A model generated the notes under the pieces. That model was not told the DNA's origin and searched no databases. It saw nothing but the letters and a program-made list of their open reading frames with translations. A program made the position numbers and the translations under genes. Of a DNA stretch of 64,000 bases, positions 27,017-50,125 are shown piece after piece (the stretch's first letter is position 1; every line of letters starts with the position of its first letter). This DNA comes from Micromonospora sp. R77 (lineage in GTDB: Bacteria; Actinomycetota; Actinomycetes; Mycobacteriales; Micromonosporaceae): positions 5,580,001-5,644,000 of the forward strand of contig NZ_JALDST010000001.1 of NCBI RefSeq assembly GCF_022747945.1, given 5' to 3'.

Positions 27017-27364
27017 TCAGCGCAGCGCGCCGGGCGAGGGCGCGTCGGCCGCGTCCCAGCTGTAGAAGCAGCCGGCCACGGCGTCCCGGGGGGAGTGCCA
27101 GGTCGGCAGGTAGGGCGAGGTGTGCGCGGAGAGGCGCTCGTTGACCTGGCGGTACAGCGGGTGCTGGCGCGCCCCGGCGACCGCGTCCGGGTCGACGTCC
27201 GTGGTCTCCATCAGGTGTACGCACAGGTCGTGCAGGCAGTACAGCGACCGGTGCCGGATGCCGGTCAGTCCGGGCAGCTCGGTGGCGTCGGACTCGGCGA
27301 AGATCTGCGCGACCCGCCCCTCCGCCCCTGGGACGATCCGGCTGACGATCAACAGACGACTCAT
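27017..27364 (-). CDS. TcmI-family polyketide cyclase (copy 1)
   Basis: A 115-residue ferredoxin-fold cyclase of the TcmI group, acting on aromatic polyketide intermediates (late-ring closure in pentangular or tetracenomycin-type pathways). Recognisable sequence: LLIVSRIVPGAEGRVAQIFAESDATELPGLTGIRHRSLYCLHDLCVHLMET, then HSPRDAVAGCFYSWD. ATG 27364 has an AGAGGGG ribosome site. It is a clear paralogue of the plus-strand copy at 28692, sharing FAESDATELP, GxRHRSLY and SPRDAxAxCFYxxDA. It is transcribed away from the main cluster with the SARP gene just upstream on the same strand. Confidence 0.85.
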   Translation of the reverse strand: MSRLLIVSRIVPGAEGRVAQIFAESDATELPGLTGIRHRSLYCLHDLCVHLMETTDVDPDAVAGARQHPLYRQVNERLSAHTSPYLPTWHSPRDAVAGCFYSWDAADAPSPGALR

Positions 27365-27457
27365 CGGGACCCCTCTCGCCGGTGGTGCCGCGGGACCCAC
27401 CGGGGGGTGTCGGACACCGTGTGGGACCACCATGCGGGCGGTGCTGTCATCTGCCCG

Positions 27458-28273
27458 TCACGCCTGCGGTCGGGCCCGTGACGCTGCCGGGGGTGTTGCC
27501 GCCGGTCGGCGTGGCGTCGCGGGCGGTCGGGTGGCGTGGCGGATCGGGGCGAGGGTCTCGTCGAGCAGCGCGCACATCGCCGGGGACGGTTCCAGGCGCA
27601 GTTCCCGCAGCAGCAGGTCCCGGTAGACGTAGAAGGCGTGCACCGCCTCGAAGGCGTTGCCCTCGGCGAGGTGGATCCGGACCACCAGCCGGTGCGGGGT
27701 CTCGCGCAGCGGTTCGGCGGCCATCGCCTCCAGGGCCGCCTCCAGGGCCTGCCCGTGCCGGCCGGCGGCCAGGTGGTTGCCGGCGAGCTGTTCCAGCATG
27801 TGCAGGCGCAGCTGCCGCAGCCGTTCGCGTTCCAGCAGCACCCAGTCGTCGTACCAGCCGGGGAGGAGGTCGTGGCGGCCGGCGGCGAGGGCGGCGCCGG
27901 TGGTGTCGGGCACGTCGCCGGTGCGGACCCGGGCGGCGGTCTGCACCAGTTCGTCGATGTCGACCGCGACGCGGGGCCCCAGGCGTACGGTGTCGCCGTC
28001 GGTGACCAGCGGGCAGTACGGGTCCTGGCGCAGCCGCCACAGCGCGGTCCGCAGCGACGACAGGGCGCGCTCCTCCGCCGTCTCGGGCCAGAGCAGGCCG
28101 GCCAGGTGGCTGCGGGTGGCGCCCGGCCGCAGGCCGATCAGCGCGATGACGCGTTGCAGTCCCCGGGGCACCACCACCGGGGTCTCGTCGTGCGTCAGTC
28201 GGAACCCGCCGAGCAGGTGCAGCGACACCTGGGGCGCGGACCGCTCCCCGGCGCTCCTCGAATGACCGGTCAC
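27458..28273 (-). CDS. SARP family transcriptional activator (OmpR-type HTH plus BTAD)
   Basis: A 271-residue SARP regulator. Residues about 17-105 form the OmpR/PhoB winged helix (LLGGFRLTHDETPVVVPRGLQRVIALIGLRPGATRSHLAGLLWPETAEERALSSLRTALWRLR), then the BTAD helical domain (HDLLPGWYDDWVLLERERLRQLRLHMLEQLAGNHLAAGRHGQALEAALEAMAAEPLRETPHRLVVRIHLAEGN) follows. Family members activate antibiotic operons by binding direct repeats. GTG 28273 is selected as start; the frame is open to 28420 but that extension overlaps a promoter-like sequence. It sits between the two TcmI genes at the head of the type II PKS operon and is the likely pathway-specific activator. Confidence 0.9.
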   Translation of the reverse strand: MTGHSRSAGERSAPQVSLHLLGGFRLTHDETPVVVPRGLQRVIALIGLRPGATRSHLAGLLWPETAEERALSSLRTALWRLRQDPYCPLVTDGDTVRLGPRVAVDIDELVQTAARVRTGDVPDTTGAALAAGRHDLLPGWYDDWVLLERERLRQLRLHMLEQLAGNHLAAGRHGQALEAALEAMAAEPLRETPHRLVVRIHLAEGNAFEAVHAFYVYRDLLLRELRLEPSPAMCALLDETLAPIRHATRPPATPRRPAATPPAASRARPQA

Positions 28274-28409
28274 GGGCGCACCCCCTGCGCCGGAACCCTC
28301 GTCCCGACTGTCCCTCGTTGGCCCGGCGCGACTGCCCGCGACGCCAGTGTCTCCAGCCGTTCCGCCGCGGCGCCCCTCGTACGTCCCGGCCACCGGGCTC
28401 ACTGGGACG

Positions 28410-28691: not shown

Positions 28692-29020
28692 ATGGACCGT
28701 TCGCTCATCGTCGCGAAGGTGGTGCCGACCGCCGAGGAGCAAGTGGCGGAGATCTTCGCCGAGTCCGACGCGACGGAACTGCCACGCCTCGCCGGCGTCC
28801 GGCACCGCTCGCTCTACCGGCTCGGTGACCTGTACGTGCACCTGCTGGAGACGGAGCTGTCGGGGGAGGGCGCGGTGGAGAACGTCCGTCGGCATCCCGA
28901 GTTCGAGCGGGTCAGCGCCCGGCTGCGGCCGTACATCACGCCGTACCTGGCGGACTGGCGCTCCCCGCGGGACGCGATGGCGCACTGCTTCTACCGCTTC
29001 GACGCCCCCGGGCGGCGGTC

Positions 29021-29024
<4 letters not shown>
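28692..29024 (+). CDS. TcmI-family polyketide cyclase (copy 2)
   Basis: A 110-residue TcmI-type cyclase (LIVAKVVPTAEEQVAEIFAESDATELPRLAGVRHRSLYRLGDLYVHLLETE; WRSPRDAMAHCFYRFDA). ATG 28692 follows GGGGAGG. The stop overlaps the GTG of the carboxylase gene, so it opens the main PKS operon. Two TcmI paralogues in one cluster suggest that two separate ring closures, or a cyclase and a non-catalytic partner, are needed. Confidence 0.87.
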
Positions 29025-33858
<4,834 letters not shown>

Positions 33859-33862
<4 letters not shown>

Positions 33863-35127
33863 CCGGCCGACGCACCGTGGTCACCGGCATCGGCGTCGTC
33901 GCGCCCGGCGGCGTCACCCGGGACCGGTTCTGGAAGACCATCACCGAGGGGCGGACCGCCACCCGGCGGATCAGCTTCTTCGACCCGTCGCCGTTCCGGT
34001 CCCGGATCGCCGCCGAGTGTGACTTCGACCCGGACGCCGCCGGGATCACCCTCGCCGAACGGCAGCGCGCCGACCGGTACGTGCAGTTCGCCCTCGCCTG
34101 CTCCACCGAGGCGCTCGCCGACAGCGGGTTGACCCTCACCGACGTCGGGCGGGACCGCGCCGGGGTGGTGCTGGGCACCGCCGTCGGCGGCACCATGGCG
34201 CTGGAGCAGGAGTACGTGCGGGTCAGCGACGCCGGCAGCCGGTGGCTGGTCGACCACACCCGCGGCGGGCCGTACCTCTATCAGGCGCTCGTGCCGAGCA
34301 GCCTGGCCGCGGAGGTGGCCCGCCGGCACGGCCTGCACGGGCCGGCGCAGGTGGTCTCCACCGGCTGCACCTCCGGCATCGACGCCATCGGGTACGCCCA
34401 CCAGCTGATCGTCGACGGTGAGGCGGACGTGCTGCTCGCCGGGGCCGCCGACTCGCCGATCTCCCCGGTCACCGTCGCCTCCTTCGACGCGATCCAGGCG
34501 ACCAGCCCGGACAACGACGATCCGGAGCACGCCTCCCGGCCGTTCGACGCGGACCGGCACGGGTTCGTCCTCGCCGAGGGGGCGGCGGTGCTGGTGCTGG
34601 AGGAGGCCGAGCACGCCCGCCGGCGCGGCGCGCACGTCTACTGCGAGCTGGCCGGCTATGCCAGCCGCAGCAACGGCTTCCACATGACCGGGCTGCGCCC
34701 CGACGGGGTGGAGATGGCGCTGGCCATCACCGACGCGATGCGGCAGGCGCGGATCGCGCCGGGCGACGTGTCGTACGTCAGCGCGCACGGCTCCGGCACC
34801 CGGCAGAACGACCGGCACGAGACGGCCGCGTTCAAGCGGGCCCTGGGGCCGGCCGCGTACCGGGTGCCGATCAGTTCGATCAAGTCGATGGTGGGTCACT
34901 CGCTGGGCGCGATCGGCTCGATCGAGATGGCCGCCTGCGCCCTCGCGATCGAGTACGGCGTGGTCCCGCCGACGGCCAACTGGAGCACCCGGGACCCGGA
35001 GTGCGACCTGGACTACGTGCCGAACGAGGCGCGCGAGCTGCCGGTGGACGTGGCGCTCTCGGTGGGCAGCGGCTTCGGCGGCTTCCAGTCCGCGATGATC
35101 TTCCGCCGACTGGCGGCGGTATCGTGA
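33859..35127 (+). CDS. Type II PKS ketosynthase alpha
   Basis: A 422-residue KS-alpha that condenses malonyl units on the ACP. The active site is complete: Cys170 in [16 protein letters not shown], His310 in [15 protein letters not shown], and Lys342/His347 in [16 protein letters not shown]. Length and motifs are those of aromatic type II KS enzymes. The GTG start overlaps the cupin stop. KS-beta follows after a 55-base gap, an unusually wide spacing for a pair that is normally translationally coupled. Confidence 0.95.
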
Positions 35128-35182: not shown

Positions 35183-36424
35183 GTGACCGCGCGGGCGGTG
35201 GTGACCGGGGTGGGGGTGGTCGCGCCGAGCGGCGTCGGCGCCGACGCGCACTGGGCGACGGTCCTCGCCGGCACCCGGCGCACCGGGCCGATCACGCTGT
35301 TCGACCCGGCCGGCTACCCGACCCGGATCGGCGGGGAGGTGCCCGACTTCGACGCCACCCGCTACGCCGACTCCCGGCAGCTCGTGCAGACCGACCGGTG
35401 GACGCACCTCGGTTTCGCCGCCACCCGGTTGGCGCTGGCCGACGCCGGCCTGCCCGAGCAGGCCCCGGACCCGTACGACTGGGCGGTCACCCTGGCCAGC
35501 TCGTCCGGGGGGAACCTGTTCGGGCAGCGGGAGCTGCAGCGGCTCTGGGGCGGGGCGACCCGGACCGTCGGGGCGTACCAGTCGATCGCCTGGTTCTATG
35601 CGGCGAGCGTCGGGCAGCTGTCGATCCGGCACCAGCTCAAGGGGCCGTGCGGGGTGCTGGACGCCGAGTCGGCCGGTGGGCTGGACAGCCTGGCCCACGC
35701 GGTCCGCACCATCCGCCGGGGCACCCCGGTGGTGGTCGCCGGCGCGACCGAGTGCCCGCTGAGCCCGTACGCGTTGGCGTGTCAGCTCCGCTCCGGCCTG
35801 CTCAGTGACGTGTCCGACCCGGAGCGGGCCTACCGGCCGTTCGACGCCACCGCCGCCGGCTACGTACCGGCGGAGGGCGGCGCGGTCTTCGTGGTGGAGG
35901 AACTCGGGCACGCGCTGGCCCGGGGCGCGCGGATCTACGGTGAGGTGACCGGCTGGGCGGCCACCCACGACGCCGCCCCCACCGAGGCGGACGTGGAGCC
36001 CGACCCGACACACTACGCGCGGGCGCTGCGGCTGGCCCTGGACCGGGCCGGGGTGCGGCCGCACGACGTGGACGTGGTCTTCCCCGACGCGCTGGGGGTG
36101 CGGGCGCACGACCGGGCCGAGGCGGCGGCGCGGCGGTCGGTGTTCGGTGACCGGCCGCCGCCGGTGACCACGCAGAAGCCGCTGACCGGCCGCGCCCACC
36201 AGGGCGGCTCCGCGCTGGACGTGGCGACGGCGCTGCTCGCCTTCCGGCACGGGCTGCTGCCCGCCTCCGCCGCCCCCGACCAGCCCGCCGACGGCTGCGA
36301 GCTGGACTTCCTGCGCGAGCCCCGCCGCCTTCGCACCCGGGTCGCGCTCATCGGCGCCCGCGGCTTCGACGGCTTCAACAGCGCCCTCGTCCTCCGCGGC
36401 GCCGCACCCCCACCCACCCCCTGA
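35183..36424 (+). CDS. Type II PKS chain length factor (ketosynthase beta), Ser at the usual Gln position
   Basis: A 413-residue KS-beta. The region aligned to the KS cysteine reads VLDAESAGGLDSLAHA, so Ser163 (codon TCG 35669-35671) stands where chain length factors usually have Gln (AEQAGGLD). The His motifs are also replaced (VFPDALGVRAHDRAE; QKPLTGRAHQGGSA), as expected for a non-condensing partner that sets chain length. It closes the operon, followed by a terminator hairpin at 36468. The GTG start is at 35183. Confidence 0.93.
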   Translation: MTARAVVTGVGVVAPSGVGADAHWATVLAGTRRTGPITLFDPAGYPTRIGGEVPDFDATRYADSRQLVQTDRWTHLGFAATRLALADAGLPEQAPDPYDWAVTLASSSGGNLFGQRELQRLWGGATRTVGAYQSIAWFYAASVGQLSIRHQLKGPCGVLDAESAGGLDSLAHAVRTIRRGTPVVVAGATECPLSPYALACQLRSGLLSDVSDPERAYRPFDATAAGYVPAEGGAVFVVEELGHALARGARIYGEVTGWAATHDAAPTEADVEPDPTHYARALRLALDRAGVRPHDVDVVFPDALGVRAHDRAEAAARRSVFGDRPPPVTTQKPLTGRAHQGGSALDVATALLAFRHGLLPASAAPDQPADGCELDFLREPRRLRTRVALIGARGFDGFNSALVLRGAAPPPTP

Positions 36425-36718: not shown

Positions 36719-38119
36719 GTGGTGGACAGTCAACGGACGACCGAAGATCCTGCGGTGACCGACCCGAGCTGGGTGGACGACATCCTGCTGGCCGGTCCGC
36801 CGACCGACATCTGTCTGCGCCTGCCCGAGCCGGTGGACCGCGGCACCCTGCGCCGGCTCGTCGAGGCGGCCCAGACCCGGCTCGCGGCGGCCGGGCTGCG
36901 TCCGGGCGGTGCCGCCGCGCTGCGCCTGCCGCCGTCGGTGGCGTACGTGGTGAACCTGCTCGCCACCTGGCGCACCGGGGCCCAGGCGGTCCTGCTCGAC
37001 CACCGGCTCACCGACCATGAGGTGGACCGGGCGCTGCGCCGGCTCACCCCGCAGGTGGTCGTCGCCCCGGTCCGTACCGGCGGCGGCGCGCTGCGGGTCT
37101 TCCTGGACGTCACCGAGGGGGTCACCCCGTACGCCGACCGGCCCGCCGGCAGCGCCCACGCGGTGATCCAACTCAGCTCCGGCTCCACCGGCCCGTCCAA
37201 GGTGATCGGTCGGACCGCCGCCGACCTGGTCGCCGAGGTGCACCGCTACACCCTCATCGACGGGGTGGCGCGGGCCGGCGAGCGGATCATCCTGCTGCCC
37301 TCGATGGTGCACGTGCTCGGCCTGGTCGGCGGCCTGCTCCACGGGCTGCACACCGGCGTCGAACTGGTGCCGCCGCAGCGGCTCAGCGGGGATGCCATCC
37401 TCGCCGCCGTCGCCGCCCAGGACACCCCCGCCACCGTGCTCGGCGTGCCGTTCCACATCGGACTGCTCGCCTCCACCCGCCCGGCCGGCCCGCTGCCGCA
37501 ACTGGTCCGGATGACCACCGGCGGCGAGCTGGTCCCGGCCGCCGTGGCCCGCGCCTTCACCGACCGCTTCGGCGTCCCGCTGGGCAACATGTACGGGATG
37601 ACCGAGGTCGGCGTCATCGGCACCGACCTGTACGGGCGGCACCGACCCGCCATCACCCCCGCCCCGGGCATCCAGGTGCGCGAGGTCGGCGGCGAGCTGC
37701 TGGTCAGCTGCCCGGCGTCGCCGTACGTCGGGCTCAGCGACCCGACCCGCTGGTCCGACGGGTGGCTGCACACCCGCGACGCCGGCACCGTCGACCCGGA
37801 CAGCGGCCGGGTCACGGTCGCCGGCCGGCTCGACTCGCAGGTGTCCGTGGGTGGCCTGAAGGTCGACCTGAGCGAGGTGGAGGCCACCGTCGCCGAGCTG
37901 CCCGGGGTGGGCGCCGCCGTGGTGGTCTGGGACGACGGGATCACCGCGTACGTGCAGCCGGACGGGCCGCTCACCGAGGAGACCCTGGACGACCTGCTCG
38001 CCGAGCGGCTGGCCGGCTACAAACGGCCGCGTACGCTGCGCCTGCTCGACCGGCTGCCCCGGACCACCACCGGCAAGCTGGTCCGCTCCGCCCCGGCGCT
38101 GCGGGCGGCGGCGTCGTGA
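36719..38119 (+). CDS. Adenylate-forming acyl/aryl ligase (ANL superfamily), first of two in the cluster
   Basis: A protein of about 466 residues, short for the family. Core motifs are present: HAVIQLSSGSTGPSKVIGRTAADL (A3), GNMYGMTEVGVIG (A5), DGWLHTRDAGTVDPDSGRVTVAGRLDSQVSVGGLKVDLSEVE (A7-A8) and LDRLPRTTTGKLVRS with the catalytic Lys (A10). It would activate a carboxylic acid and load it on CoA or one of the nearby ACPs. The start is uncertain: GTG 36719 is used, and 36713, 36722 and 36755 are alternatives in the same frame. It is followed by the convergent PPTase. Confidence 0.82.
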   Translation: MVDSQRTTEDPAVTDPSWVDDILLAGPPTDICLRLPEPVDRGTLRRLVEAAQTRLAAAGLRPGGAAALRLPPSVAYVVNLLATWRTGAQAVLLDHRLTDHEVDRALRRLTPQVVVAPVRTGGGALRVFLDVTEGVTPYADRPAGSAHAVIQLSSGSTGPSKVIGRTAADLVAEVHRYTLIDGVARAGERIILLPSMVHVLGLVGGLLHGLHTGVELVPPQRLSGDAILAAVAAQDTPATVLGVPFHIGLLASTRPAGPLPQLVRMTTGGELVPAAVARAFTDRFGVPLGNMYGMTEVGVIGTDLYGRHRPAITPAPGIQVREVGGELLVSCPASPYVGLSDPTRWSDGWLHTRDAGTVDPDSGRVTVAGRLDSQVSVGGLKVDLSEVEATVAELPGVGAAVVVWDDGITAYVQPDGPLTEETLDDLLAERLAGYKRPRTLRLLDRLPRTTTGKLVRSAPALRAAAS

Positions 38120-39381: not shown

Positions 39382-40479
39382 GCGGGGACGGCCCGTACCG
39401 ATCACCGGCGTCCATGCGCTCAGCGCCCTCGGCAGGGGCGTCGACGCGCAGCTCGCCGGGGTGCTCGCCGGCACCCCGGCGTTCGGGCCGGTACGGCGCT
39501 TCGACACCACCGGCCGCCGGGTCACGGTCGCGGCCACCCTGCCGCAGGTCGGCACCCTCGCCGACGAGCTGACCGACGCGGTCGACCGGCCCTGCCGGGC
39601 GCCGGCCTGGATGCGGCCCGGCGGGCCGAGTCGCTGCTGCTGGCCACTCCACGGCGGGCCCACGCCCGACGGCGGGCCCGAGGTGCCGGCGCTCGCCGGG
39701 CACCTCGCCGGCCGCTGCGGCCTCGGCGGATCGACCCGCGTCTACACCACCGCCTGCGTCTCGGCGAGCACGGCGGTGGCCGACGCGGCCACCTGATCGG
39801 GCGCGGTGACCTCACCCGGGTCGTGGTGGCCGCCGGCTACCTGGTCGAACCGGACCAGTACGCGCTCTTCGACGCCGGCCGGGCGCTCGCCGCCGACGGC
39901 GCGGTCCGCCCGTTCAGCGCCGGACGGCAGGGCCTGCTGCTCGGCGACGGGGTGGCCGCCGTGGTGCTGGAGTCCGCCGACGCCGCCCCGTCGGCGGGGC
40001 CGAACCGCTGGCCTCGGTGCACGGCTGGGGACGGGCCGGCGACGCGTACCACCCGTGCCAACCGACCCGCGCGGACCGGCCTGGCCCGCGCGGTGCGCTC
40101 CGCGTGCGCCGGGCCGGGCTGCCCGCCGAGGCGGTCGGCTACGTCAACGCCAACGCCACCGGTACGCAGTCCGCCGACGCGTCGGAGGCGGCGGCGCTGC
40201 GGCTGGCCCTCGGTGACCTCGCCGACCGGCTGCCGGTCGCTCCACCAAGGCGCTGCACGGGCACACGCTCGAGGCGTCCGGCCTGCTCGAACTGGTGGTC
40301 ACCGCGCAGGCGCTGCGGCACGGGAAACTGCCCGTCAACGCCGGTTTCCTGGCCCCCGACGACGCCTGCCCCCTCGACGTCATCACGACGCCCCCGCGCC
40401 CGCCGTCACCCCGTACGCGCTCACCCTGAACGCCGCCTTCGGCGGCGCGAACACCGCGCTCCTGGTCGGTGCCCCGTGA
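39374..40479 (+). pseudogene. Beta-ketoacyl synthase with Cys-Asn-His active site, frameshifted
   Basis: From ATG 39374 the FabF-like N-terminus reads PITGVHALSALGRGVDAQLAG. Later blocks occur in three frames: GLDAARRAESLLLATPRR (39602), VYTTACVSASTAVADA (39750, Cys nucleophile), RVVVAAGYLVEPDQYALFDAGRALAADGAVRPFSAGRQGLLLGDGVAAVVLE (39820), VGYVNANATGTQSADASEA (40135), STKALHGHTLEASGLLELV (40240) and PYALTLNAAFGGANTALLV at the end. The usual VNAHGTGT histidine is Asn here. At least four indels must be corrected. It overlaps the carrier gene upstream and the KS-like gene downstream (GTGA 40476), in keeping with an operon. Confidence 0.75.
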
Positions 40480-40993
40480 CCCCCGACGCCGGGCGGACAC
40501 CGGTCGGGTGGCGGGTGCTCGCCGAGGCGCGCTGGCCGGAGCCCGGCGACGGACACCGCCGGGGGTGCCGGGCTTCGTGCACTCGGCGTTCGCGCCGCTG
40601 GTCGTGGCGGTGGCGGAGCGCTGCCTGCGCCGGTACGCCGACCCGCCGGCGGGCCGGACGGCGGTGCTGCTGGTCAGCGCGCACGGGGACCGGAGCAGCG
40701 CGGAACACGTCCGCGCCACGGTGGCCGCCGGGGGCCGGATCGGGCCGCTGTTCTTCTACCAGTCGGTGCCGAACAGCGTCGCCGGGCACGTCGCGGCCCG
40801 CTGGGGACTGGACGGCCCGGTGGTCTGTCTGAGCCCGACCGGCGACCCGTGGGCCGCCGGCGTCGCCGAGGCGGACCTGCTGCGCTACGACGGCGACGCC
40901 GACCAGGCGTTGCTGGTGCACGTCGACGCGGCACCCGACGGCACGCCCACCGGGGCGGTCGCGGTGCTGCTGGGGGGAGGGACCCGTCAATGA
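40476..40993 (+). pseudogene. Short beta-ketoacyl-synthase-like (chain-length-factor-like) protein, one frameshift
   Basis: GTG 40476 overlaps the KS stop and gives VTPDAGRTPVGWRVLAEARWPEPGDG; the remainder, reached by a frame change near 40560, reads PGFVHSAFAPLVVAVAERCLRRYADPP, TAVLLVSAHGDRSSAEHVRATVAAGGRIGPLFFYQSVPNSVAGHVAARWGLDGPVVCLSP. The segment PLFFYQSVPNSVAGHVA recalls the Ketoacyl-synt_2 (PF13723) proteins of aryl-polyene clusters, which are short KS-like partners. The total is about 172 residues with no catalytic cysteine visible. It overlaps the ligase start (ATGA 40990). Confidence 0.6.
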
Positions 40994-42601
40994 GGACGAA
41001 GGGACTGCGCGGCGCGCTCGCCGCCGACCCCGAACTGGGCGCCGGGAACGTGCTCGCCCGGGTGCTGGCGCACGGCGCCGACCCGGACGGGCCGGGGCTC
41101 ACCTTCGACACACCGGTCGACGGCCACCCGGCCGAGCAGCCGCTGACCCTGGGGCAGCTCGCCGAGCGGGTCGCCGCCCGGGCCGCCTGGCTGCACGAGC
41201 ACGGGGTACGGCCCCGGGACCCGGTCGCGGTCTGGGCCACCGGCGCGGCCGACATGGTGCTCTCCTTCCTGGCGCTGGCCCGGCTCGGCGCGATCCCGGC
41301 GCTGATGAACGGGCGGCTGCGCGGAGATCCGCCGAGTACATCCGCCGGCTGCGCCCCGCCGGGGTGTCGCCGACGCCGCGCACACCGGGCTGCTGGCCGG
41401 GCACGACCTGGGCGCCCCGCTGCTGGGCCGGCCAGCCGACGCGGGCGCCGGGGACCCGGCCGCCGCGCCCGCCCACCACCGGCACCACGACGAGGACCCG
41501 GTCGTCATCACCCACACCTCCGGCACCACCGGGGTGCCTAAGGCGGTGCTGCACTCGCACGCCAGCCTCTTCGCCGCCACCCGGCACCTGCTCACCATGC
41601 CGCAGGCACAGGGCACCCACCGGATCCTCAACGCGCTGCCCGCCCCGCACACCGCCACGGTGCTCATGGTCAACCAGGCGCTGGGCAACCGGGCGGAGAT
41701 GTTCCTGCTCTCCGACCAGGGCGGCGAACGGGTCCTGGAGGCGATCCGGCGCTGGCGGCCCGACGGGGTGTTCGGCTTCTCGGTGACCTGGGCGGAGCTG
41801 GCCCGGTTCGACCTGTCCGCGTACGACCTGACGTCGGTGCGGCTGTGGTTCAACACCGGGGACGCCTCGCACGAACCGCACATCCGTCGCCTGGTCCGGG
41901 TCGGTTCCCGCGACGTGGTGACCCGCGACGGGGTGACCCGGGTGCCCGGCTCGGTCTTCATCGACGGGCTCGGCTCCAGCGAGATGGGGCACTCGATGTT
42001 CCACGTCACCCACACCGTCGACACCGACCGGTACGGCCGCTGCGTCGGCCGCCCCTACCGGTTCGCGAAGGTGGCGGTGCTCGACGAGCACGGCGACGAG
42101 CTGCCGCCCGGCCGGGTCGGCTGGCTCGGCGTCGACTCGCCGTCGCTGTTCCGGGGCTACTGGAACGACTCGGTGACCACCTGGCGGTCCCGGCTGCGCG
42201 GCTGGTACCTCACCGGCGACCTGGTCCGCACCGACTCCGACGGCCGCTTCTACCACCTGGACCGGGCGGTGGACTCCGTCGACGCGGGCGACGGGAAGCG
42301 CTTCTTCACCGCCCTGTCCGAGGAGCGGGTCCTCGCCGCCTGCCCCGACGTCACCGACTGCACCGTGGTGATCGTCAAGGAGGCGGCCGGGGTGGTCACC
42401 GACGTGCTGCTGGAACTCGCCACCGGGGCGGACCCGGAGGTGGACCGGACCGAGCCGGTCCGGGCGGCGCTCGGCCCGGACGTCGGGGCGACCCTGCGCC
42501 GGGTGGTGCCGGTCCGGGCGGACGACATCCCGGTCACCGTGACCGGCAAGGTCCGCAAGGTGGCGCTGCGCGAGCGCCACCTGACCGAGCGGGCGTCATG
42601 A
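40990..42601 (+). pseudogene. Adenylate-forming acyl/aryl ligase (ANL superfamily), second in the cluster, frameshifted
   Basis: ATG 40990 opens MRTKGLRGALAADPELGAGNVLARVL and LAERVAARAAWLHEHGVRPRDPVAVWATGAADMVLSFLALARLGAIPALMNGRL; then two frame changes occur between about 41325 and 41500. The rest is intact: VITHTSGTTGVPKAVLHSHASL (AMP loop), DGLGSSEMGHSMF, GWYLTGDLVRTDSDGRFYHLDRAVDSVDAGDGKRFFTALSEERVLA and the C-terminal TVTGKVRKVALRER with the catalytic Lys. It resembles acyl-AMP ligases that load a starter on an ACP. The stop overlaps the next KS (ATGA 42598). Confidence 0.78.
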
Positions 42602-43911
42602 CCGCCGTCATCACCGGGATGGGCCTGTTCACCCCGGTGGGACGGGGGGCGGAGGCGACCTTCACCGCGCTGACGTCCGGCCGGTCCGGGCTGGTCCGAC
42701 CACCCGAGGGCCACCCGGCGCGGGAGTCGCTGGAGGTGGCCGGGGTGCTGCCGCCGATCGACCCGCGCGACGTCGCGTCCGGACCGGAGACGAAGGTGCT
42801 CGACCGGATCGTGCTGCTCGCCCTGCTCACCGCCGCCGAGGCGCTGGCCGACGCGGGCATCGAGGTGGGCCGGGACGTCGACCCGGGCCGGATCGGGGTG
42901 ATCGTCGGCGGGGTCGGCGGCATGGCCACCCTGGAGACGCAGGTGCTGGCCCGGGCCGCCCGGGGCCGCGCGGCGGTCAGCCCGTACCTGCTCACCGGGA
43001 TCCTGCCGAACATGCCGGCCGCGCGGATCGCGATCGCGCACGGCATCCGGGGCTACAGCTCGGCGGTGGGCACGGCCTGCGCGTCCGGCGCGCAGTCGGT
43101 CGCCGACGCGGTACGCCTGATCCGGGCCGGCGAGGCCGACGTGGTGGTCTGCGGGGCGAGCGAGGCGCCGCTCTTCCCGACCTTCGCCGACACGTTCGGC
43201 AACGCCCGGGCGCTCGCCCGGGGCTGGGCCGACCCGACCGAGGCGAGTCGCCCGTTCGACAAGCGGCGCAACGGTTTCGTGCTGGCCGAGGGGGCGGCGC
43301 TGCTGGTGCTGGAGCGCGCCGGGCACGCCGCCGCCCGGGGCGTCACCGGCTACGCCGAGGTGGCCGGTTACGGGGCGACGACCGACGCGTACCACCCGAC
43401 GGCGCCGCGACCGGACGGGACGGGGGCGGCCGAGAGCATGCGCCGGGCCCTGGCGAGCGGGGGAGTCACCGTGCGGGACGTCGGCTACGTCAACGCGCAC
43501 GGCACCGGCACCCGGCTCGGGGACATCGCCGAGGCCACCGCGCTGGGGCAGGTGTTCGGGGTGGGCGGGGTGCCGGTCAGCGCCACCAAGGCGCTCACCG
43601 GGCACCTGCTCGGGGCGTCCGGGGTGCTGGAGGCGGCGGCCACCGCGCTCGCGCTCGGCCGGGGGCTGCTGCCGCCGACCTACCACCTCGACGACCCGGA
43701 CCCGGACTGCCCGGCCGACCACGTCCGGACCTTACCCCGGGCGACCACCGCCGAGTACGCGCTGACCAACTCCTTCGGCTTCGGCGGCCAGAACGTCAGC
43801 CTGCTGCTGCGTCGGGTCGCCGGCGACTGCTCCGGGTCGCGGCGCGGCGACAGCCGCGCCGAGCCGGAGTGGTCGTCACCGCGCCGACCGGCCACCCGAC
43901 CAGCGGAGTGA
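42598..43911 (+). CDS. FabF-type beta-ketoacyl-ACP synthase
   Basis: A 437-residue condensing enzyme with complete active site: Cys in SSAVGTACASGAQSVADA (about residue 162), His in VNAHGTGTRLGDIAE, and Lys/His in SATKALTGHLLGASGVLEAA. Near the C-terminus is the typical NSFGFGGQNVSLLL. The last about 30 residues (GSRRGDSRAEPEWSSPRRPATRPAE) are hydrophilic and non-conserved. It belongs to the small-ACP/ligase sub-cluster rather than to the aromatic KS-alpha/beta pair, and a 62-base gap separates it from the dioxygenase gene. Confidence 0.92.
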   Translation: MTAVITGMGLFTPVGRGAEATFTALTSGRSGLVRPPEGHPARESLEVAGVLPPIDPRDVASGPETKVLDRIVLLALLTAAEALADAGIEVGRDVDPGRIGVIVGGVGGMATLETQVLARAARGRAAVSPYLLTGILPNMPAARIAIAHGIRGYSSAVGTACASGAQSVADAVRLIRAGEADVVVCGASEAPLFPTFADTFGNARALARGWADPTEASRPFDKRRNGFVLAEGAALLVLERAGHAAARGVTGYAEVAGYGATTDAYHPTAPRPDGTGAAESMRRALASGGVTVRDVGYVNAHGTGTRLGDIAEATALGQVFGVGGVPVSATKALTGHLLGASGVLEAAATALALGRGLLPPTYHLDDPDPDCPADHVRTLPRATTAEYALTNSFGFGGQNVSLLLRRVAGDCSGSRRGDSRAEPEWSSPRRPATRPAE

Positions 43912-43973: not shown

Positions 43974-45122
43974 ATGGAGATCACCGGAATAGACCACCTC
44001 GAACTGCACGTGGGGGACGCCCGGCAGGCGGCCTTCTACTTCGGCACCGCGGTCGGTTTCCAGCTGCGCGGCCAGGGGGGACCGGAGACGGGGCTGGCCG
44101 ACCAGCGGTCGCTGCTGCTGGGGCAGGCCGACATCCGGCTGCTGCTCACCTCCGGGCTGACCGCCGAACATCCGGCGTCGACGTACGTGCAACGGCACGG
44201 CGACGGCGTCGCGGTGGTGGCGCTGGAGGTCGACCACGCCGCCGGGGCGTACGCGGAGCTGGTGGCGCGCGGCGCGACGGCGGTGGCCCCGCCGCGCACC
44301 TGGACCGGCGCGGACGCCGAGGTGGTGACCGCCGAGGTCGGCGGCTTCGGCGACGTGCGGCACCGGCTGGTGGAGCGGCGCGGCGACCGGGCCGACTTCC
44401 TGCCCGGCGCGATCGAGTCGCTGCCGGCCGGCCCCGGCGACGACCTGCTCGCCGAGGTCGACCACCTGGCCGTCTGCGTGCCACCCGGGCGGCTCGCCGC
44501 GACCGTCGCCTACTACGAACGGGTCTTCGGCTTCGCGTCGACCTTCACCGAGCACGTCGAGGTGGCCGGGCAGGCGATGAACTCCACCGTGGTGCAGAGC
44601 CCGTCCGGGCGGGTCACCCTCGTGCTGCTGGAGCCGGACACCAGCCGGCGGCCCGGCCAGATCGAGGACTTCCTGCGCTGGCACGCCGGGGCCGGGGTGC
44701 AGCACCTGGCGCTGCGCACCGACGACATCGTCAGCGCCGTCGGCGCGCTCGCCGGGCGGGGCGTCCGCTTCGCCGGCACCCCGGGCAGCTACTACGACGG
44801 CCTGGAGCAGCGGGTGGGGCCGGTCGACGCGCCGCTGGCCCGGCTGCGTGAGCTGGGCGTCCTGGTCGACTCCGACCACGGTGGACAGCTGTTGCAGATC
44901 TTCACCGAGTCGATGCACGTGCGCCGCACCCTCTTCCTCGAACTCATCGAGCGGCGCGGCGCGCGCACCTTCGGCAGCGGCAACATCCGGGCGCTCTACG
45001 AGGCCAAGGAACGGGAGCTGACCGCGGCGGGGGCGAACCCCGGCGTCGCGGCCGGCACCACCACACCCACCGTCGCGGCGCGACCCGCCGTGGCGGCGAC
45101 GAGTCGAGAGGTGGCGGCATGA
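43974..45122 (+). CDS. 4-hydroxymandelate synthase / 4-hydroxyphenylpyruvate dioxygenase family non-haem iron enzyme
   Basis: A 382-residue enzyme of two vicinal-oxygen-chelate domains. Iron ligands are His in EVDHLAVCV, His in [13 protein letters not shown] and Glu in [23 protein letters not shown]. The family C-terminus [15 protein letters not shown] is present. The substrate region reads [21 protein letters not shown], lacking the NEP found in HPPD and, as far as I remember, closer to 4-hydroxymandelate synthases (HmaS). It would turn 4-hydroxyphenylpyruvate into 4-hydroxymandelate (or homogentisate if HPPD). The HmaS reading is supported by the 2-hydroxyacid oxidase at 62940. The stop overlaps the PhyH gene start. 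Confidence 0.82.
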
Positions 45123-46042
45123 CCACGACCGAGCCCGCGCTGACCGCCGAGGAGGAGGCGCTGCTGCCCTCCCCGGCCGACGTGCGGTTCTACACCGAGC
45201 ACGGCTGGTACCTGTCGAAGAAACTGTTCACCGACGACGAGGTCGACGCGCTGGCCGCGGCGGCCGACCGCTACTACGCCGGGGAGCGGGACCGCACCCT
45301 GCCGGTCCGGCCGCCGAAGCTCGCCTACTGGGACCCGTCGAAGGGACCGGTGCAGCGGCACAACGACTACGTCCACCACGAGCACGACGGGCTCGGGGCG
45401 ATCCTGCGCAAGCCGCTGCTCGGGGCGGTCGCCGCCCGCCTGGCGCAGGCCGACGAGATCCGGATCTTCCAGTCCACCCTGATCTACAAGCCGCCGATCT
45501 CCGGCGAGCCGTCGAACATCGTGCCCTGGCACTTCGACAAGCACTACTGGGCGTCGTCGTCGTCGGAGCGGATGCTCACCGCGTTCATCCCGTTCCACGA
45601 CTGCGGCGAGGAGATGGGCACCATCACCATGGTCGACGGCTCGCACCGTTGGCGGGAGGTGGGCGCGGACGACACGGTGGTGCGGCACTTCGCCGAGCGC
45701 GACCGCGACCAGCTGGAGGAGATGCTCGCCGAGAACGCCGCGTACAACGGCGCGGTGATCCGCAAGATCCCCGTGGTGATCCCGAAGGGACACGTCAGCT
45801 TCCACCACTGCCGCACCTACCACGGCAGCGGCCCGAACCTCAGCGACCGGCCCCGGCAGGCGATCTCGCTGCACCTGCAGGACGGCGGCAACAGCTGGCG
45901 GGAGTATCCGCTCTCCGACGGGACGCTCGCCGCGTACAACCACGACGTGCTGGTCCGCCGCACGCCCGACGGGCGGCCGGACTACGCGGACCCCGAATTC
46001 TGCCCGGTCGTCTGGCGCGACCGCGCCCAGCAGGGAGGCTGA
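45119..46042 (+). CDS. Phytanoyl-CoA dioxygenase (PhyH) family Fe(II)/2-oxoglutarate oxygenase
   Basis: A 307-residue PhyH-like oxygenase. The facial triad is visible as HxD in [10 protein letters not shown] and the distal His in [27 protein letters not shown], whose Arg would bind 2-oxoglutarate. Family members hydroxylate or halogenate natural-product intermediates, often on carriers or CoA. ATG 45119 overlaps the dioxygenase stop and the DUF3050 gene begins three bases after its end, giving one transcription unit. The substrate cannot be read from the sequence. Confidence 0.85.
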
Positions 46043-46044
46043 CA

Positions 46045-46842
46045 ATGTCACGGTACGACTGGGGTGGCACGCACCCGGGCATCGAACGGCTGGAGCAGGC
46101 GGTCACCGAGCGCCGCGACGCCGTCGTCCGGCATCCCCTCTACGCCCACCTCGACACCCACGAGGCGCTGGTCACCTTCATGGCGCACCACGTCTTCGCG
46201 GTGTGGGACTTCATGTCGCTGCTGACGTCGCTGCAACGCCAGCTCACCTGCGTCACCGTGCCGTGGATCCCGACCGGCCCGACCGGCAGCCGCCGCCTGA
46301 TCAACGACATCGTCATGGTGGAGGAGAGCGACGAGCTGGGCGACGGCTACATCAGCCACTTCGAGCTCTACGTGCGCGGCATGCGGGAGGCCGGCGCCGA
46401 CACCACCGCCGTCGACCGCCTCGTCGACCTGCTGCGGGCCGGGCGGCCGGTCACCGAGGCCCTGACCGAGGCCGGCGTGCCCGCCCCGTCGGCGGCGTTC
46501 GCCGGCACCACCTGGCGGATCATCGAGCAGACCCCGGTGCACTGCCAGGCGGCGGCCTTCGCGTTCGGCCGGGAGGACCTGATCCCCGAAATGTTCACCC
46601 AGGTCGTCGCCGTCAACGACCGCAGCCACCGGCTGAACACCTTCGTCGACTACCTCGAGCGGCACATCGAGGTCGACGGCGAGCAGCACACCCCGATGGC
46701 CATGCAGATGCTGGCCGACCTCTGCGGCGACGACGACACCAAGTGGCAGGAGTGCGCCGACACGGTCAACGAGGCACTCACCGCCCGGGCGAAGCTCTGG
46801 GACGACATCCTCGCCGCGATCAAGGAGGGCCGGCCGGCGTGA
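46045..46842 (+). CDS. DUF3050 family haem-oxygenase-like dimetal oxidase
   Basis: A 265-residue all-helical protein with the DUF3050 pattern: [74 protein letters not shown], and a C-terminal [34 protein letters not shown]. Histidine, glutamate and aspartate residues in helices 1, 3 and the last part fit the ligand set of haem-oxygenase-like diiron oxidases (HDOs), several of which do C-C cleavage or N-oxygenation. ATG 46045 has AGGGAGG upstream. The next gene overlaps by four bases. Its role here is inferred only. Confidence 0.8.
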
Positions 46843-47807
46843 GCGCCGACCCGGTCCGGCTCTACCGCACGGTACGGCTGATCCGCCGGTTCGAGGAGCG
46901 GGCCATCGACCTGGTGCACGCCGGGACGATCGTCGGCGGCATCCACCCGTACCTCGGCCAGGAGGGGATCGCCGCCGGGGTCTGCGCGGCGCTGCGCGCC
47001 GACGACCTGGTCACCGGCACCCACCGGGGGCACGGGCACGTGCTGGCCAAGGGCGCCGACCCGGCCCGGATGCTCGCCGAGCTCTGCGGCCGGGCCACCG
47101 GGCTCAACCGGGGCCGGGGCGGGTCGATGCACGCCGCCGACCTCGGCGTCGGGGTGCTCGGCGCGAACGCCATCGTCGGCGCCGCCGGCGCGATCCTCAC
47201 CGGGGCGGTGTGGGCCCGCCGGCGGCGCGGCGCCGACGTCGTCGGCGCCACCTTCTTCGGTGACGGCGCGGTCAACGAGGGAATGCTGCTGGAGGCGTTC
47301 AACCTGGCCGCGCTCTGGCGGGTCCCGGTGCTGTTCATCTGCGAGAACAACGGCTACGCCACCACCATGCCCGTCGCGGGCGCGGTCGCCGGCACCATCG
47401 CCGGCCGCGCCGAGGCGTTCGGCATGCCGGCCACCGTCGTGGACGGCCAGGACCCCGAGACCGTACGCGTGGCCACCGCCGCCGCCGTCACGCGGATGCG
47501 CGCCGGCGGCGGCCCGGAGCTGGTCGAGGCCCGCACCTACCGCTTCGACGCCCACCACACCTTCGAACACGTGGTACGCCTCGACTACCGGACGCCCGAC
47601 GAGGTGGCCGCCGGTCGGGCCCGCGACCCGGTGGACATCCAGGCCGCCCGGCTGTCGGCGGCCGACCGGGCGGCCGTCGACGCGGAGGTCGAGACCACCC
47701 TCGCCGCGGCGGTCGAGTTCGCCCTGGCCAGCCCCGAGCCCGACCCGGCCGGCGCGCTGGACCACCTGTACGCCAGCGGGCTGGTCGCCCGGACCGGAGG
47801 TGGCTGA
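46839..47807 (+). CDS. Thiamine-diphosphate-dependent dehydrogenase E1 component, alpha subunit
   Basis: A 322-residue E1-alpha of the pyruvate/branched-chain 2-oxoacid dehydrogenase type: [59 protein letters not shown] and the ThDP motif [45 protein letters not shown] 46839 overlaps the DUF3050 stop. Only the E1 pair is encoded; no E2 acyltransferase or E3 is nearby. The pair may therefore decarboxylate an aryl 2-oxoacid and hand the unit to another acceptor, as proposed for the PglB/PglC pair of phenylglycine biosynthesis. Confidence 0.9.
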
Positions 47808-48772
47808 TGCCCCGGCTCTCCTACCGTCGGGCGCTCACCCGGGCGCTCGCCGACGAGTTGACCCGCGACGAGTCGGTCTTCCTGCTGGGCGAGGACATCC
47901 GGGTGGGTGCCTCGAACGTCACCTCGGGGCTGCTGAAGCGGTTCGGGCCGGACCGGGTGATCGACACCCCGCTGTCGGAGCAGGCGTTCACCAGCTTCGC
48001 CACCGGGGCGGCCCTGGCCGGGCTGCGGCCGGTCGTCGAGTTCCAGATCCCGTCGCTGCTGTTCCTGGTCTTCGAGCAGATCGTCAACCACGCGCACAAG
48101 TTCCCGCTGATGACGGGCGGGCAGTGCGCCGTGCCGGTCACCTACCTGGTGCCCGGCTCCGGCTCGCGGACCGGGTGGGCGGGGCAGCACTCCGACCACC
48201 CGTACGGCCTCTTCGCGCACGTGGGGGTGACCACGGTGGTGCCGGCCACCCCGGCCGACGCGTACGGGCTGCTGGTGTCGGCGATCCGCTGCGACGACCC
48301 GGTGGTGGTCTTCGCCCCGGCGGGCGCGCTGGACGTCCGCGCCGACGTGCCCGATCCGGCGCCGGTGCCGCTGGGCCGGGGCGTGGTCCGGCGCGCCGGC
48401 GCCGACGTCACGGTGGTCGCCGTCGGGCACCTGGTGCACGACGCGCTCGCCGTCGCCGACGAACTCGCCGACCAGGTCTCCGTGGAGGTGTTCGACCCGC
48501 GCACCCTCTATCCGTTCGACCGGGACGGGCTGGTCGAGTCGGTGTCCCGCACCGGCCGGCTGGTGGTGGTGGACGACTCCAACCGGTCCTGCGGCATCGC
48601 CGCCGAGATCATCGCCACCGTGGTCGAGCGGGTCCGGCTGGCCGCGCCGCCCCGCCGGGTCACCCGCCCCGACGGGGCCGTGCTGCCCTTCGCGCCCGCC
48701 CTGGACCGGGCCGTGCAGCCCGGCCGGGACCAGCTCCGCGCCGCCATCCAACTGACCATGAAGGACGGATGA
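47807..48772 (+). CDS. Thiamine-diphosphate-dependent dehydrogenase E1 component, beta subunit
   Basis: A 321-residue E1-beta: LSYRRALTRALADELTRDESVFLLGEDIRVGASNVTSGLLKRFGPDRVIDTPLSEQAFTSFATGAALAGLRPVVEF, then QIVNHAHKFPLMTGGQ and the C-terminal transketolase domain (VEVFDPRTLYPFDRDGLVESVSRTGRLVVVDDSNRSCGIAAEI). The conserved Glu of the ThDP site (LSEQAF) is kept. ATG 47807 overlaps the alpha subunit stop (TGATG). Needed with the alpha subunit for a functional heterotetramer. Confidence 0.9.
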   Translation: MPRLSYRRALTRALADELTRDESVFLLGEDIRVGASNVTSGLLKRFGPDRVIDTPLSEQAFTSFATGAALAGLRPVVEFQIPSLLFLVFEQIVNHAHKFPLMTGGQCAVPVTYLVPGSGSRTGWAGQHSDHPYGLFAHVGVTTVVPATPADAYGLLVSAIRCDDPVVVFAPAGALDVRADVPDPAPVPLGRGVVRRAGADVTVVAVGHLVHDALAVADELADQVSVEVFDPRTLYPFDRDGLVESVSRTGRLVVVDDSNRSCGIAAEIIATVVERVRLAAPPRRVTRPDGAVLPFAPALDRAVQPGRDQLRAAIQLTMKDG

Positions 48773-48775
48773 CCG

Positions 48776-50125
48776 ATGGACCCGAACTACGTGTGGCCGC
48801 CCGCCGCACAGCCGTGGAGCGACCTTCCCGAGTCCACCCGTACGGCGATGGTGGCCAGCGGCGCCGCGGCCTGGGAGCAGGTCTTCCACGGCCGGGCGAC
48901 GTACAACCGGCAGTGGCGGCTGGCCCGCCCCCCGGTGTTGACCGCCGACGCGTTCCGCGAGCTGAACGAGGTCTGTGACCGGATCGCCCAGCTGATCCTC
49001 CAGGCGTGCCGCCGGCGGGCCTCCACGGCCGGACAACTGCGCCGGCTGCTGGACGTGCCGGAGGGGGAGACCCGGCTGCTCGACGAGGACGAGCCGCTGC
49101 ACGACGGCCTGCTCGCCGCGTTCCGGCCGGACGTGCTGCTCTCGGACGGGGTGCCGTGCATCGTCGAGTACAACATCGACAGCAGCCTCGGCGGCGCGTT
49201 CGACGCCGACACGGTGATCTACCGCTACGCCGACCTCTACCGCGAGCGGGGCCTGCTGGACGGGGTCCGGCCGGCGCCGTCCCTGCTGGATCAGCGGTTC
49301 GTGGCGATCCGGGACACGCTGGGCCTGGCCGACGGTGCCCGGGTGGCGCTGCTGATGGACCTCGACGCCGACTATCCCGGCCTGGAGGACCCGGAGACGT
49401 TCCTGCGGATCCTCGACCCGCTCGCCGACCGGGCCAAGCACTTCGGCATCGACCTGGTCATCGCCGGCCTCGCCACCGCCACCGTGGACGCCGGGAAGCA
49501 CCTCTTGGTCGGCGGTGCACCCGTCGACGCGCTGTTCCGGCTCTTCGTGCCCAACCGGGTCACCCCCAGCGCCGGCCTGGACGCGGTGGCCGCCGCCCTG
49601 GCCGCGGGCACCCTGCCGATGTTCGTCAGCGCCGCCGCCTGGCTGCTCGGCAACAAGCTCAACTACGCCTGGCTCTGGGCCGACCTCGACCTGCTCTCCG
49701 AGGCCGACCGGACGCTGGTCCGCCGGTACGTCCCGCACACCGTCGCGCTCACCGCCGACCAGCTCGACCGGGCCCTCGCGGACCAGGCGAACCTGGTGGC
49801 GAAGCCGGCCGGTGGCTCCGCCGGGTACGGGGTGCTGATCGGCCGGGAGCTGAGCCCGGTCGCCTGGGAGGACGGCGTCCGCGCCGCCGTCGACGCGGGC
49901 GGCAACATCCTCCAGCGCTACCACCACGCCGACCGGGTGCCGATGGACTTCGTGCGGATCGAGACCGGGGAGACCGTCACCGCCGAGGTGCCGTACAGCC
50001 TGGCCCCGTACCTGTTCGGCCGTACCGCCTCCGGCGCCCTGGCCCGCGTCGGCTTCCCCGGCTGCGAGGAGGTCCTCAACCTCGCCCGAGGCGTCCTCCT
50101 CACCGGCATCCTCCTCACCGACTGA
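48776..50125 (+). CDS. ATP-grasp-like ligase, uncharacterised
   Basis: A 449-residue protein. DGVPCIVEYNIDSSLGGAFDADTVIYRYADLY in the N-terminal half resembles the acidic-Asn motif of circularly permuted ATP-grasp or glutathionylspermidine-synthetase-like enzymes; later NKLNYAWLWADLDLL, QANLVAKPAGGSAGYGVLIG (ATP loop) and GGNILQRYHHADRVPMDFV (metal and Lys region) follow. Such enzymes join a carboxylate to an amine through an acyl-phosphate. ATG 48776 is three bases after the E1-beta stop (GGATGACCG), so it is the last gene of the tailoring run. It could make the final amide bond of the product. This is inference from fold and place; I do not recognise the exact family. Confidence 0.65.
   Translation: MDPNYVWPPAAQPWSDLPESTRTAMVASGAAAWEQVFHGRATYNRQWRLARPPVLTADAFRELNEVCDRIAQLILQACRRRASTAGQLRRLLDVPEGETRLLDEDEPLHDGLLAAFRPDVLLSDGVPCIVEYNIDSSLGGAFDADTVIYRYADLYRERGLLDGVRPAPSLLDQRFVAIRDTLGLADGARVALLMDLDADYPGLEDPETFLRILDPLADRAKHFGIDLVIAGLATATVDAGKHLLVGGAPVDALFRLFVPNRVTPSAGLDAVAAALAAGTLPMFVSAAAWLLGNKLNYAWLWADLDLLSEADRTLVRRYVPHTVALTADQLDRALADQANLVAKPAGGSAGYGVLIGRELSPVAWEDGVRAAVDAGGNILQRYHHADRVPMDFVRIETGETVTAEVPYSLAPYLFGRTASGALARVGFPGCEEVLNLARGVLLTGILLTD

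Follow-up and report, generated by a model that had tools for sequence, protein, structure and literature searches.

An ava/cma-like gene set with a predicted 4-hydroxyphenylglycine route stands beside a separable type II polyketide synthase in Micromonospora

Aryl-primed type II polyketide synthases (PKSs) are known from the clusters ava and cma, for avenalumic and p-coumaric acid, of Streptomyces sp. RI-77 and Kutzneria albida. For these the consulted parts of PMC10777205 give a gene order A1-A2-A3-A4-A5-A6 (Table 1) and, from a model, draw attention to two residues of CmaA3, the carrier of the starter, that are thought to contact A1 (Trp38 and His41). Here we describe a 64,000-nucleotide stretch of Micromonospora sp. 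R77 (GCF_022747945.1, NZ_JALDST010000001.1, positions 5,580,001-5,644,000 of the forward strand; "the window", genome label G000) in which a gene set of this kind, set B, adjoins another type II PKS, set A. Genes were predicted with a codon-model caller, domains were assigned with Pfam and NCBIfam, and solved relatives were found by sequence matches to the PDB. From these data we consider it probable that the locus holds two side-by-side sets: A, a non-reducing type II PKS present almost throughout the genus, and B, an independent PKS of ava/cma kind, also type II and aryl-primed, that has been rewired to a 4-hydroxyphenylglycine route.

The distribution of the two sets was followed with one marker each, the acyl carrier protein (ACP)-cyclase fusion g31 for set A (32713-33465, + strand; Pfam PF00550 and PF03364) and the ATP-grasp ligase g48 for set B (48776-50125, +), both searched in 250 genomes of the family, of which 63, G000 included, belong to the same genus. 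A match above 600 bits counted as presence of g48, and three further genomes with weak matches (E 1e-12 to 1e-6) were scored as lacking it. Within the genus, g31 was found in 62 of 63 genomes and g48 in 38; 37 genomes hold both, 25 hold set A only, and one (G247, an assembly of ~260 contigs) holds set B only. Of the 37 genomes with both, 33 carry the two no more than 25 kb apart on a single contig, and all 33 same-contig pairs are adjacent; in the draft assemblies G116, G183, G207 and G215 they fall on different contigs, so that adjacency there is undecided. Nineteen Micromonospora upstream stretches of the 20 read share gene order and orientation; PKS genes are absent from the twentieth, L078. 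A and B are separated by a spacer that could be measured in 18 loci of these 20; it varies from 278 to 8365 bases and is mostly empty or holds dissimilar genes. A small ABM-type monooxygenase family recurs in five of the 18, and a second small protein in three. ABM-type monooxygenases are usual companions of aromatic PKSs, and a set A oxygenase that the window does not have may exist in some relatives. A family of 105-119-amino-acid proteins lies between KS-beta and ANL1 in L074, L076, L077, L079 and L080 (the L076 copy matches PF03992). The idea that the spacer consists of lost tailoring genes was dropped on its mostly empty or unlike contents, though the 105-amino-acid family recurs (5/18).

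Set B was also found without set A. An order-wide search by intact ANL2 (298 genomes) and a class-wide search by ketosynthase KS2 (345 genomes) were followed by inspection of the neighborhoods; several loci are one strain reached by two routes, and locus counts therefore exceed strain counts. In G114, which belongs to the same family and another genus, set B runs from ANL1 to the ATP-grasp gene with no adjoining PKS genes (L078, L082), and an 84%-identical KS-alpha is encoded ~640 kb away. B-type loci lacking set A genes in the fetched stretches occur in G496, G691 and G729 (one genus, family f3), in G799 (whose locus lacks KS1 and the chain-length factor), in G638, and in G598 (an 8-kb contig that ends inside the 4-hydroxymandelate synthase gene). 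KS-alpha matches in G729 and G638 do not exceed 39% identity (E 1e-60), and the other four of these genomes have 61-66% relatives elsewhere.

The right flanks of set A in 12 of the 25 A-only genomes supplied direct traces of set B, remnants of it or of its right arm being present in 7 of the 12. In L112 and L116, KS-beta is immediately followed by E1-beta fragments that cover 26% and 56% of the protein (88% and 91% identical), and L116 also has an aminotransferase fragment; L111, L114, L115, L117 and L121 retain the hydroxymandelate oxidase (70-74% identical), and L117 in addition has the cytochrome P450, hydrolase and aminotransferase in pieces. The right flanks of L113, L118, L119, L120 and L122 show no trace of B. 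Because A-only genomes keep these remnants, B is gained and lost while A stays: set B has been lost repeatedly from beside set A while A persists, which supports A and B as two separable gene sets. The sequence-only reading had taken 27.0-50.1 kb as a single composite cluster making one pentangular hybrid. That view is not supported, given the 25 same-genus genomes that conserve the PKS marker and have the part at 36.7-50.1 kb missing or reduced to remnants, its position ~640 kb away in G114, and the occurrence of B alone elsewhere; genomes of the first kind are what the sequence-only reading had itself named as refuting it.

The core of set B has the gene order of ava/cma. ANL1, a predicted aryl-acid:ACP ligase (36755-38119, +; Pfam), is the counterpart of AvaA1/CmaA1; it is followed by the ACPs g37 (38870-39136, +; PF00550 and alignment) and g38 (39136-39381, +; by alignment, with no Pfam match) as the A2 and A3 counterparts, by KS1 (39374-40479, +; active-site columns and alignment to relatives) as A4, by a short ketosynthase (KS)-like chain-length factor (CLF; 40469-40993, +; PF13723) as A5, and by ANL2 (40990-42601, +; read with its intact relative in L029) as A6. 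A 4'-phosphopantetheinyl transferase (PPTase) gene (38232-38852, -; PF01648) is inserted on the opposite strand between the A1 and A2 counterparts. Compared with L096 (G743), a locus that is ava-type by NCBIfam (3,4-AHBA (3-amino-4-hydroxybenzoic acid)-type genes, a 3-diazoavenalumate reductase at 520 bits against a cut-off of 400, and a nitrosuccinate lyase at 601 bits against a cut-off of 650), set B is 44, 47, 35 and 44% identical at A1, A4, A5 and A6, respectively. Trp38 and His41 are present in g38, the starter-type carrier, and absent from the extender-type g37; in g38 they are invariant across 48 aligned loci (39 distinct sequences). The models of the cispentacin AmcF/AmcG type II PKS-like pair (PMC10698177) are also matched, weakly, by KS1 and the short CLF (158.7 of the required 325 bits and 34 of 80).

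The Micromonospora locus differs from ava/cma in that we found at it neither genes for 3,4-AHBA synthesis nor ketoreductase, A7 or nitrite genes, and in its additional genes for KS2, 4-hydroxymandelate synthase (HMS), PhyH, DUF3050, an E1 pair, ATP-grasp ligase, hydroxymandelate oxidase and aminotransferase, together with an altered KS1 active site. A scan of the genes at 27.0-65.4 kb, to which the search was confined, did not show the 3,4-AHBA synthase genes H and I. A related core on NZ_CP108007, a plasmid of Streptomyces sp. NBC_00335 (L109), has pabB and a class IV aminotransferase instead, with a second ligase that is not of the ANL2 type, and a related core in NBC_01343 has AHBA-type genes; because of these different companions, the ava/cma-like core seems to take different aryl acids. 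L109 also encodes a diiron oxygenase, an aminoacyl-tRNA-synthetase-like ligase and several PPTases, and adjoins YcaO/thiazole/oxazole-modified microcin (TOMM) genes. Amino-acid activators of the ANL type carry an Asp in the A4 region; ANL1 has no such amino-acid-binding residue and aligns with the ligases of AHBA and p-aminobenzoate (PABA) loci, and the proposal that it activates an amino acid was rejected. An aryl polyene cluster was likewise rejected, since neither a ketoreductase nor a dehydratase for a polyene is among the genes scanned at 27.0-65.4 kb; of the "aryl-polyene-like module" proposed from sequence, what stands is kinship to aryl-primed type II PKSs.

Genes that may supply a 4-hydroxyphenylglycine unit are split between the body of set B and a right arm. 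The best PDB match of HMS, a member of the 4-hydroxyphenylpyruvate dioxygenase (HPPD) superfamily (43974-45122, +), is 2r5v (317 bits), which we take to be the HMS (PCZA361.1) of a glycopeptide producer. The right arm encodes a cytochrome P450 (60743-61960, +; PF00067; not found in G114), an alpha/beta hydrolase (61970-62947, +; PF07859), an FMN-dependent 4-hydroxymandelate oxidase (62940-64000, +) that is frame-broken and extends beyond the end of the window, and an aminotransferase past that end (window-equivalent 64,093-65,406, on the basis of L101). The intact oxidase relative in L103 has as its best PDB match the 4-hydroxymandelate oxidase 5zzp (388 bits). Oxidase, hydrolase and aminotransferase, and with them HMS, accompany set B in G496, G691, G729 and G114; none of the three right-arm genes was seen in the fetched stretch of G638. 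Set B thus spans 36.8-50.1 kb plus the P450, hydrolase, oxidase and aminotransferase genes at 60.7-65.4 kb, and a right border at 50.1 kb, as drawn earlier, is too short. An AMP-binding ligase gene (57443-59032, -; Pfam) also lies in the right arm, at the same position in G114, G245, G181 and G193.

By homology, HMS, oxidase and aminotransferase look like a complete 4-hydroxyphenylglycine route, corresponding to HmaS-Hmo-HpgT of glycopeptide producers, with HMS and the FMN-dependent oxidase as the best-matching members and the aminotransferase following them. In contrast to glycopeptide producers, the hydroxyphenylglycine genes of set B would serve a discrete KS/ACP system, and no large nonribosomal peptide synthetase is among the genes called at 27-65 kb. 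The amino-acid-derived unit anticipated from the sequence is accordingly likely. An HPPD/homogentisate (pyomelanin) function for HMS was rejected on the 2r5v match and the presence of the hydroxymandelate oxidase, although the NCBIfam 4HPPD model passes; the residues that presumably discriminate HMS from HPPD were judged by eye on the alignment.

The two ketosynthases of set B differ in their active sites. KS2 (42598-43911, +; Pfam and active-site columns) has the catalytic C-H-H set, and in KS1 an Asn replaces the first catalytic His, giving C-N-H, in all 47 aligned loci (41 distinct sequences). The substitution is legible directly in the window DNA and occurs also in L093, L094 and L097, whereas L096, L109 and L110 retain the His; C-N-H is thus found in the HMS type and C-H-H in the AHBA and PABA types, and the A4 counterpart lacks the full C-H-H of ava/cma. 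By analogy to ketosynthases that do not elongate, KS1 may only transfer acyl groups. The enzyme proposed to form an amide also varies between loci: a condensation-domain protein is encoded in G496, G691, G729 and G799 and an ATP-grasp ligase in Micromonospora, G114 and G638 (fetched stretches), so that the putative amide-forming ATP-grasp enzyme seems to change places with condensation domains across few independent cases. The Pfam ATP-grasp match of g48 is weak (19.5 bits vs a cut-off of 26.8), and its predicted structure has the glutathionylspermidine/glutathione synthetase fold, which supports an ATP-grasp protein with a carboxylate-amine ligase fold. This part of the sequence-only reading is supported.

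ANL2 is closer in sequence to proven diazotases (the AvaA6/CmaA6/Tri17 clade) than to CoA ligases. For the intact copy in L029, the NCBIfam AvaA6 model gives 500.8 bits and the next model 134, and the PDB matches of this copy are 8ztz (411 bits), Tri17 (9bq0/8tf7; 330 bits), 9xb8 (268 bits) and other ligases below 90 bits. The entry 8ztz, unnamed in the match output, is presumably CmaA6, which is a guess; after it, Tri17 of triacsin biosynthesis (entries 9bq0/8tf7; PMC11705231, consulted in part), one of the ATP-dependent diazotases, is the nearest solved relative. Diazotization by ANL2 is a homology-based prediction. In contrast to Tri17-type systems, the Micromonospora loci read have no nitrite-forming genes beside ANL2. 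Other ANL2 relatives (~56-60% identical) lie beside a macrolide-type glycosyltransferase in L090, L091, L098, L100, L095 and L086, most of which also encode a DrrA/DrrB-type ABC transporter, a KAS III-like protein, an ACP and a protein of ~290 amino acids, possibly representing another family of diazotase-type clusters; L092 is a second Micromonospora locus with an ANL2 relative in another setting.

Nitrite genes do accompany set B in some other genomes. In G691 and G729, a condensation-domain protein, a FAD-binding protein and a nitrosuccinate-lyase relative are encoded directly behind E1-alpha and E1-beta in the same orientation; ~15 kb separate these genes from PhyH, and a transporter-glycosyltransferase block in reverse orientation lies in between. 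The FAD-binding protein is taken as a nitrosuccinate-forming monooxygenase from its place beside the lyase in L096 and its Pfam NAD_binding_9 match; it has no NCBIfam match, and its single solved relative, 8cp2, is titled merely FAD-binding protein. Counterparts of the nitrous-acid genes E and D were thus found in G691 and G729, which ties the ANL2 clade to nitrite in these two genomes; at the Micromonospora loci read they were not found. A nitrosuccinate lyase was absent at E 1e-20 from G000 and from five of six further Micromonospora genomes, G181 having 40 and 30% relatives. According to the consulted parts of PMC10777205, 72 of 134 ava-type clusters are also without nitrite genes.

DUF3050 (g45; 46045-46842, +; Pfam 321.7 bits; PDB 9vwb), a heme-oxygenase-like diiron protein, shows a contrasting distribution: it is present in 36 of 38 Micromonospora B genomes, of which two (G241, G183) have a monooxygenase relative, and at the locus in none of seven B genomes from other genera, all seven of which have the putative monooxygenase (weak in G638 and G496). 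Relatives of DUF3050 occur elsewhere in the genomes of G729 (53%) and G598 (42%). That DUF3050 replaces the nitrite genes one for one was nevertheless dropped, as G131 and G162 have neither and both are present in G241 and G183; what is seen is a single contrast between groups and not a rule. Set B persists without DUF3050 in L044 and L046 (strains KC213 and KC723), G131, G162 and G114, so DUF3050 is dispensable for keeping set B. The diiron ligands Glu-x11-His and His-x3-Asp-x3-His, with positions from the consulted part of PMC4520260, have their spacing in g45 (read by eye), and it is kept in 32 loci. The DUF3050 family is that of MgoB of the mangotoxin operon, whose insertion mutant still produced toxin, at a lower level, according to the part of PMC3298696 that was consulted.

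We infer the reactions of set B, their order, the amine that is diazotized and the product as follows. HMS would convert 4-hydroxyphenylpyruvate to 4-hydroxymandelate, the oxidase would form 4-hydroxybenzoylformate and the aminotransferase 4-hydroxyphenylglycine. ANL1 would load an aryl acid derived from this route onto the starter ACP g38, with g37 carrying malonyl; KS2 would perform decarboxylative extension, and KS1 with the short CLF would pass acyl groups without decarboxylation. Because no ketoreductase is present, the chain would stay keto. ANL2 would activate nitrite with ATP and nitrosate or diazotize the amine of an intermediate, and PhyH (a putative Fe(II)/2-oxoglutarate oxygenase; 45119-46042, +; PF05721; best PDB match SnoK), DUF3050, the P450 and the thiamine pyrophosphate (TPP) enzyme E1 pair (E1-alpha, 46839-47807, +, PF00676; E1-beta, 47807-48772, +, PF02779/PF02780) would oxidize or decarboxylate. 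The ATP-grasp ligase g48 would form an amide, as condensation-domain proteins may do in other genera.

Set A (27.0-36.4 kb) is a non-reducing type II PKS that is nearly genus-wide in Micromonospora. It encodes a TcmI-type polyketide cyclase (27017-27364, -; PF04673, E 9e-38), a Streptomyces antibiotic regulatory protein (SARP)-type regulator with a BTAD domain (27458-28228, -; PF03704, E 9e-16; no separate DNA-binding domain at E 1e-3), a second TcmI-type cyclase (28692-29024, +; PF04673, E 1.6e-40), an acetyl-CoA carboxylase with carboxyltransferase beta-alpha and biotin carboxyl carrier protein in a single protein (29021-31210, +; Pfam and NCBIfam), a biotin carboxylase (31214-32716, +; Pfam), g31, a cupin (33458-33862, +; PF07883), the KS-alpha g33 with catalytic C-H-H (33859-35127, +) and the KS-beta or chain-length factor, which lacks the catalytic Cys (35183-36424, +; both by Pfam and active-site columns). 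It resembles whiE-like spore-pigment PKSs in KS-alpha/beta, cupin, ACP-cyclase and TcmI cyclases, in having no ketoreductase that we found and in being near-universal in the genus, and differs from them in its own acetyl-CoA carboxylase genes and in the fusion of ACP to cyclase. L071 and L073 have set A without g28-g30 (second TcmI cyclase, acetyl-CoA carboxylase and biotin carboxylase; no matches). Every gene named earlier for 27.0-50.1 kb is present by gene calling and Pfam, with g38 by alignment, and neither a ketoreductase nor a flavin oxygenase is among the genes scanned there, as had been noted; the ketosynthases and ligases exist as named, except that KS1 and ANL2 are not open in this assembly when compared with intact relatives. 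An APH-type phosphotransferase gene (24749-25654) lies just left of set A and has relatives to the right of set B in L047, L057 and L081. Matches to type I PKS-like ketosynthases form a run at ~5.24-5.43 Mb of G000 contig 1, ~150-340 kb left of the window.

Homology, synteny and predicted fold support the two-set structure, the A1-A6 match, the HMS-oxidase-aminotransferase set, the KS1 substitution and the ligase fold. Several observations weigh against set B as a rewired ava/cma-kind system. HMS also passes the NCBIfam 4HPPD cut-off (342 vs 277 bits), and the aminotransferase is HpgT-like by context, its best solved relatives being generic class I enzymes. AHBA, A7 and ketoreductase genes are absent among the genes scanned at the locus, and the starter-ACP His is missing (with Trp kept) in the other-genus loci L093 and L094, the loci with nitrite genes. 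ANL2 falls below the AvaA6 equivalog cut-off of 975 bits; a relative of the putative nitrite-forming monooxygenase (E 1e-40) is absent from 36 of 38 Micromonospora B genomes, so nitrite would need another source there, and the nitrosuccinate lyase is absent at E 1e-20 in G496 and G638 as well. In G000 the reading frames of KS1, ANL2 and the oxidase are broken, and the fact that A and B are always neighbors on Micromonospora contigs that carry both may point to a product made jointly. Such a shared product, in which A makes an aromatic core, B a hydroxyphenylglycine unit and the ATP-grasp enzyme couples them, A-only genomes making the bare core, would agree with the adjacency of all 33 same-contig pairs, with the common order and orientation in the stretches read and with the amide-ligase fold at the end of set B. 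We nevertheless regard it as distinctly unlikely, given B without adjacent A in several genera, the low KS-alpha identities in G729 and G638, the separation of the sets in G114, and a spacer of variable length in which the recurring gene is of a type that usually accompanies aromatic PKSs.

The score of ANL2 below the curated cut-off, the scarcity of the monooxygenase and a gene scan of the locus that showed no A7 (denitrification) gene would also suit an ANL2 that has reverted to acyl activation, with set B making an ordinary amide of an aryl-keto acid and hydroxyphenylglycine and no N-N chemistry. This is a possibility of some substance, though a doubtful one: the intact L029 copy matches Tri17 and 8ztz at 330-411 bits and acyl-CoA ligases below 90, except 9xb8, and in G691 and G729 nitrosuccinate-type genes lie no more than ~15 kb from ANL2 relatives of ~61% identity. 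The frame changes, ~9 in KS1, ~2 in ANL2 and ~1 in the oxidase (approximate counts from our own simple alignment against an intact relative), raise the question of whether set B is decaying in this strain, its three broken genes being pseudogenes and the locus yielding the set A product only. Loss of B in other Micromonospora and single interrupted genes in relatives (ANL2 in L037, DUF3050 in L029) fit decay. However, ~11 of the ~12 changes fall in a 1.8-kb stretch of very high G+C (window 39590-41400); because an FGGY-kinase gene flanking the cluster, outside it, is also split here and is a single frame in L103, indel errors of sequencing or assembly appear more likely than decay. The other set B genes are open with normal codon use. 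Among relatives, every KS1 copy that is not truncated by the end of its locus has an open frame (47 loci, 41 distinct sequences), as do 33 of 34 ANL2 copies; we consider decay unlikely. Going further than the rewired ava/cma-kind system that we favor, set B might make a new class of hydroxyphenylglycine-derived N-N compounds, in which ANL2 converts an arylglycine amine, made by the aminotransferase and adjoining the unreduced KS2-derived ketone, into a diazo or N-nitroso function, KS1 has become a non-decarboxylating transacylase, and DUF3050 supplies oxidized nitrogen in Micromonospora in place of the aspartate-nitrosuccinate genes kept by other genera; this extension is tentative, and we think it improbable as a whole.

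No set B-type gene set or product is reported in the titles and abstract openings of the open-licence PMC papers that our searches retrieved. A distance-based rule for cluster borders would wrongly fuse A and B into one hybrid. A diazotase-type gene set occurs in 38 of the 63 genomes sampled from a genus of antibiotic producers, with no product found for it in the open papers searched, and the ava/cma core is reused there with an apparently different aryl supply, with a ketosynthase whose active site is altered, and with a predicted amide-forming enzyme whose place condensation domains seem to take at other loci.

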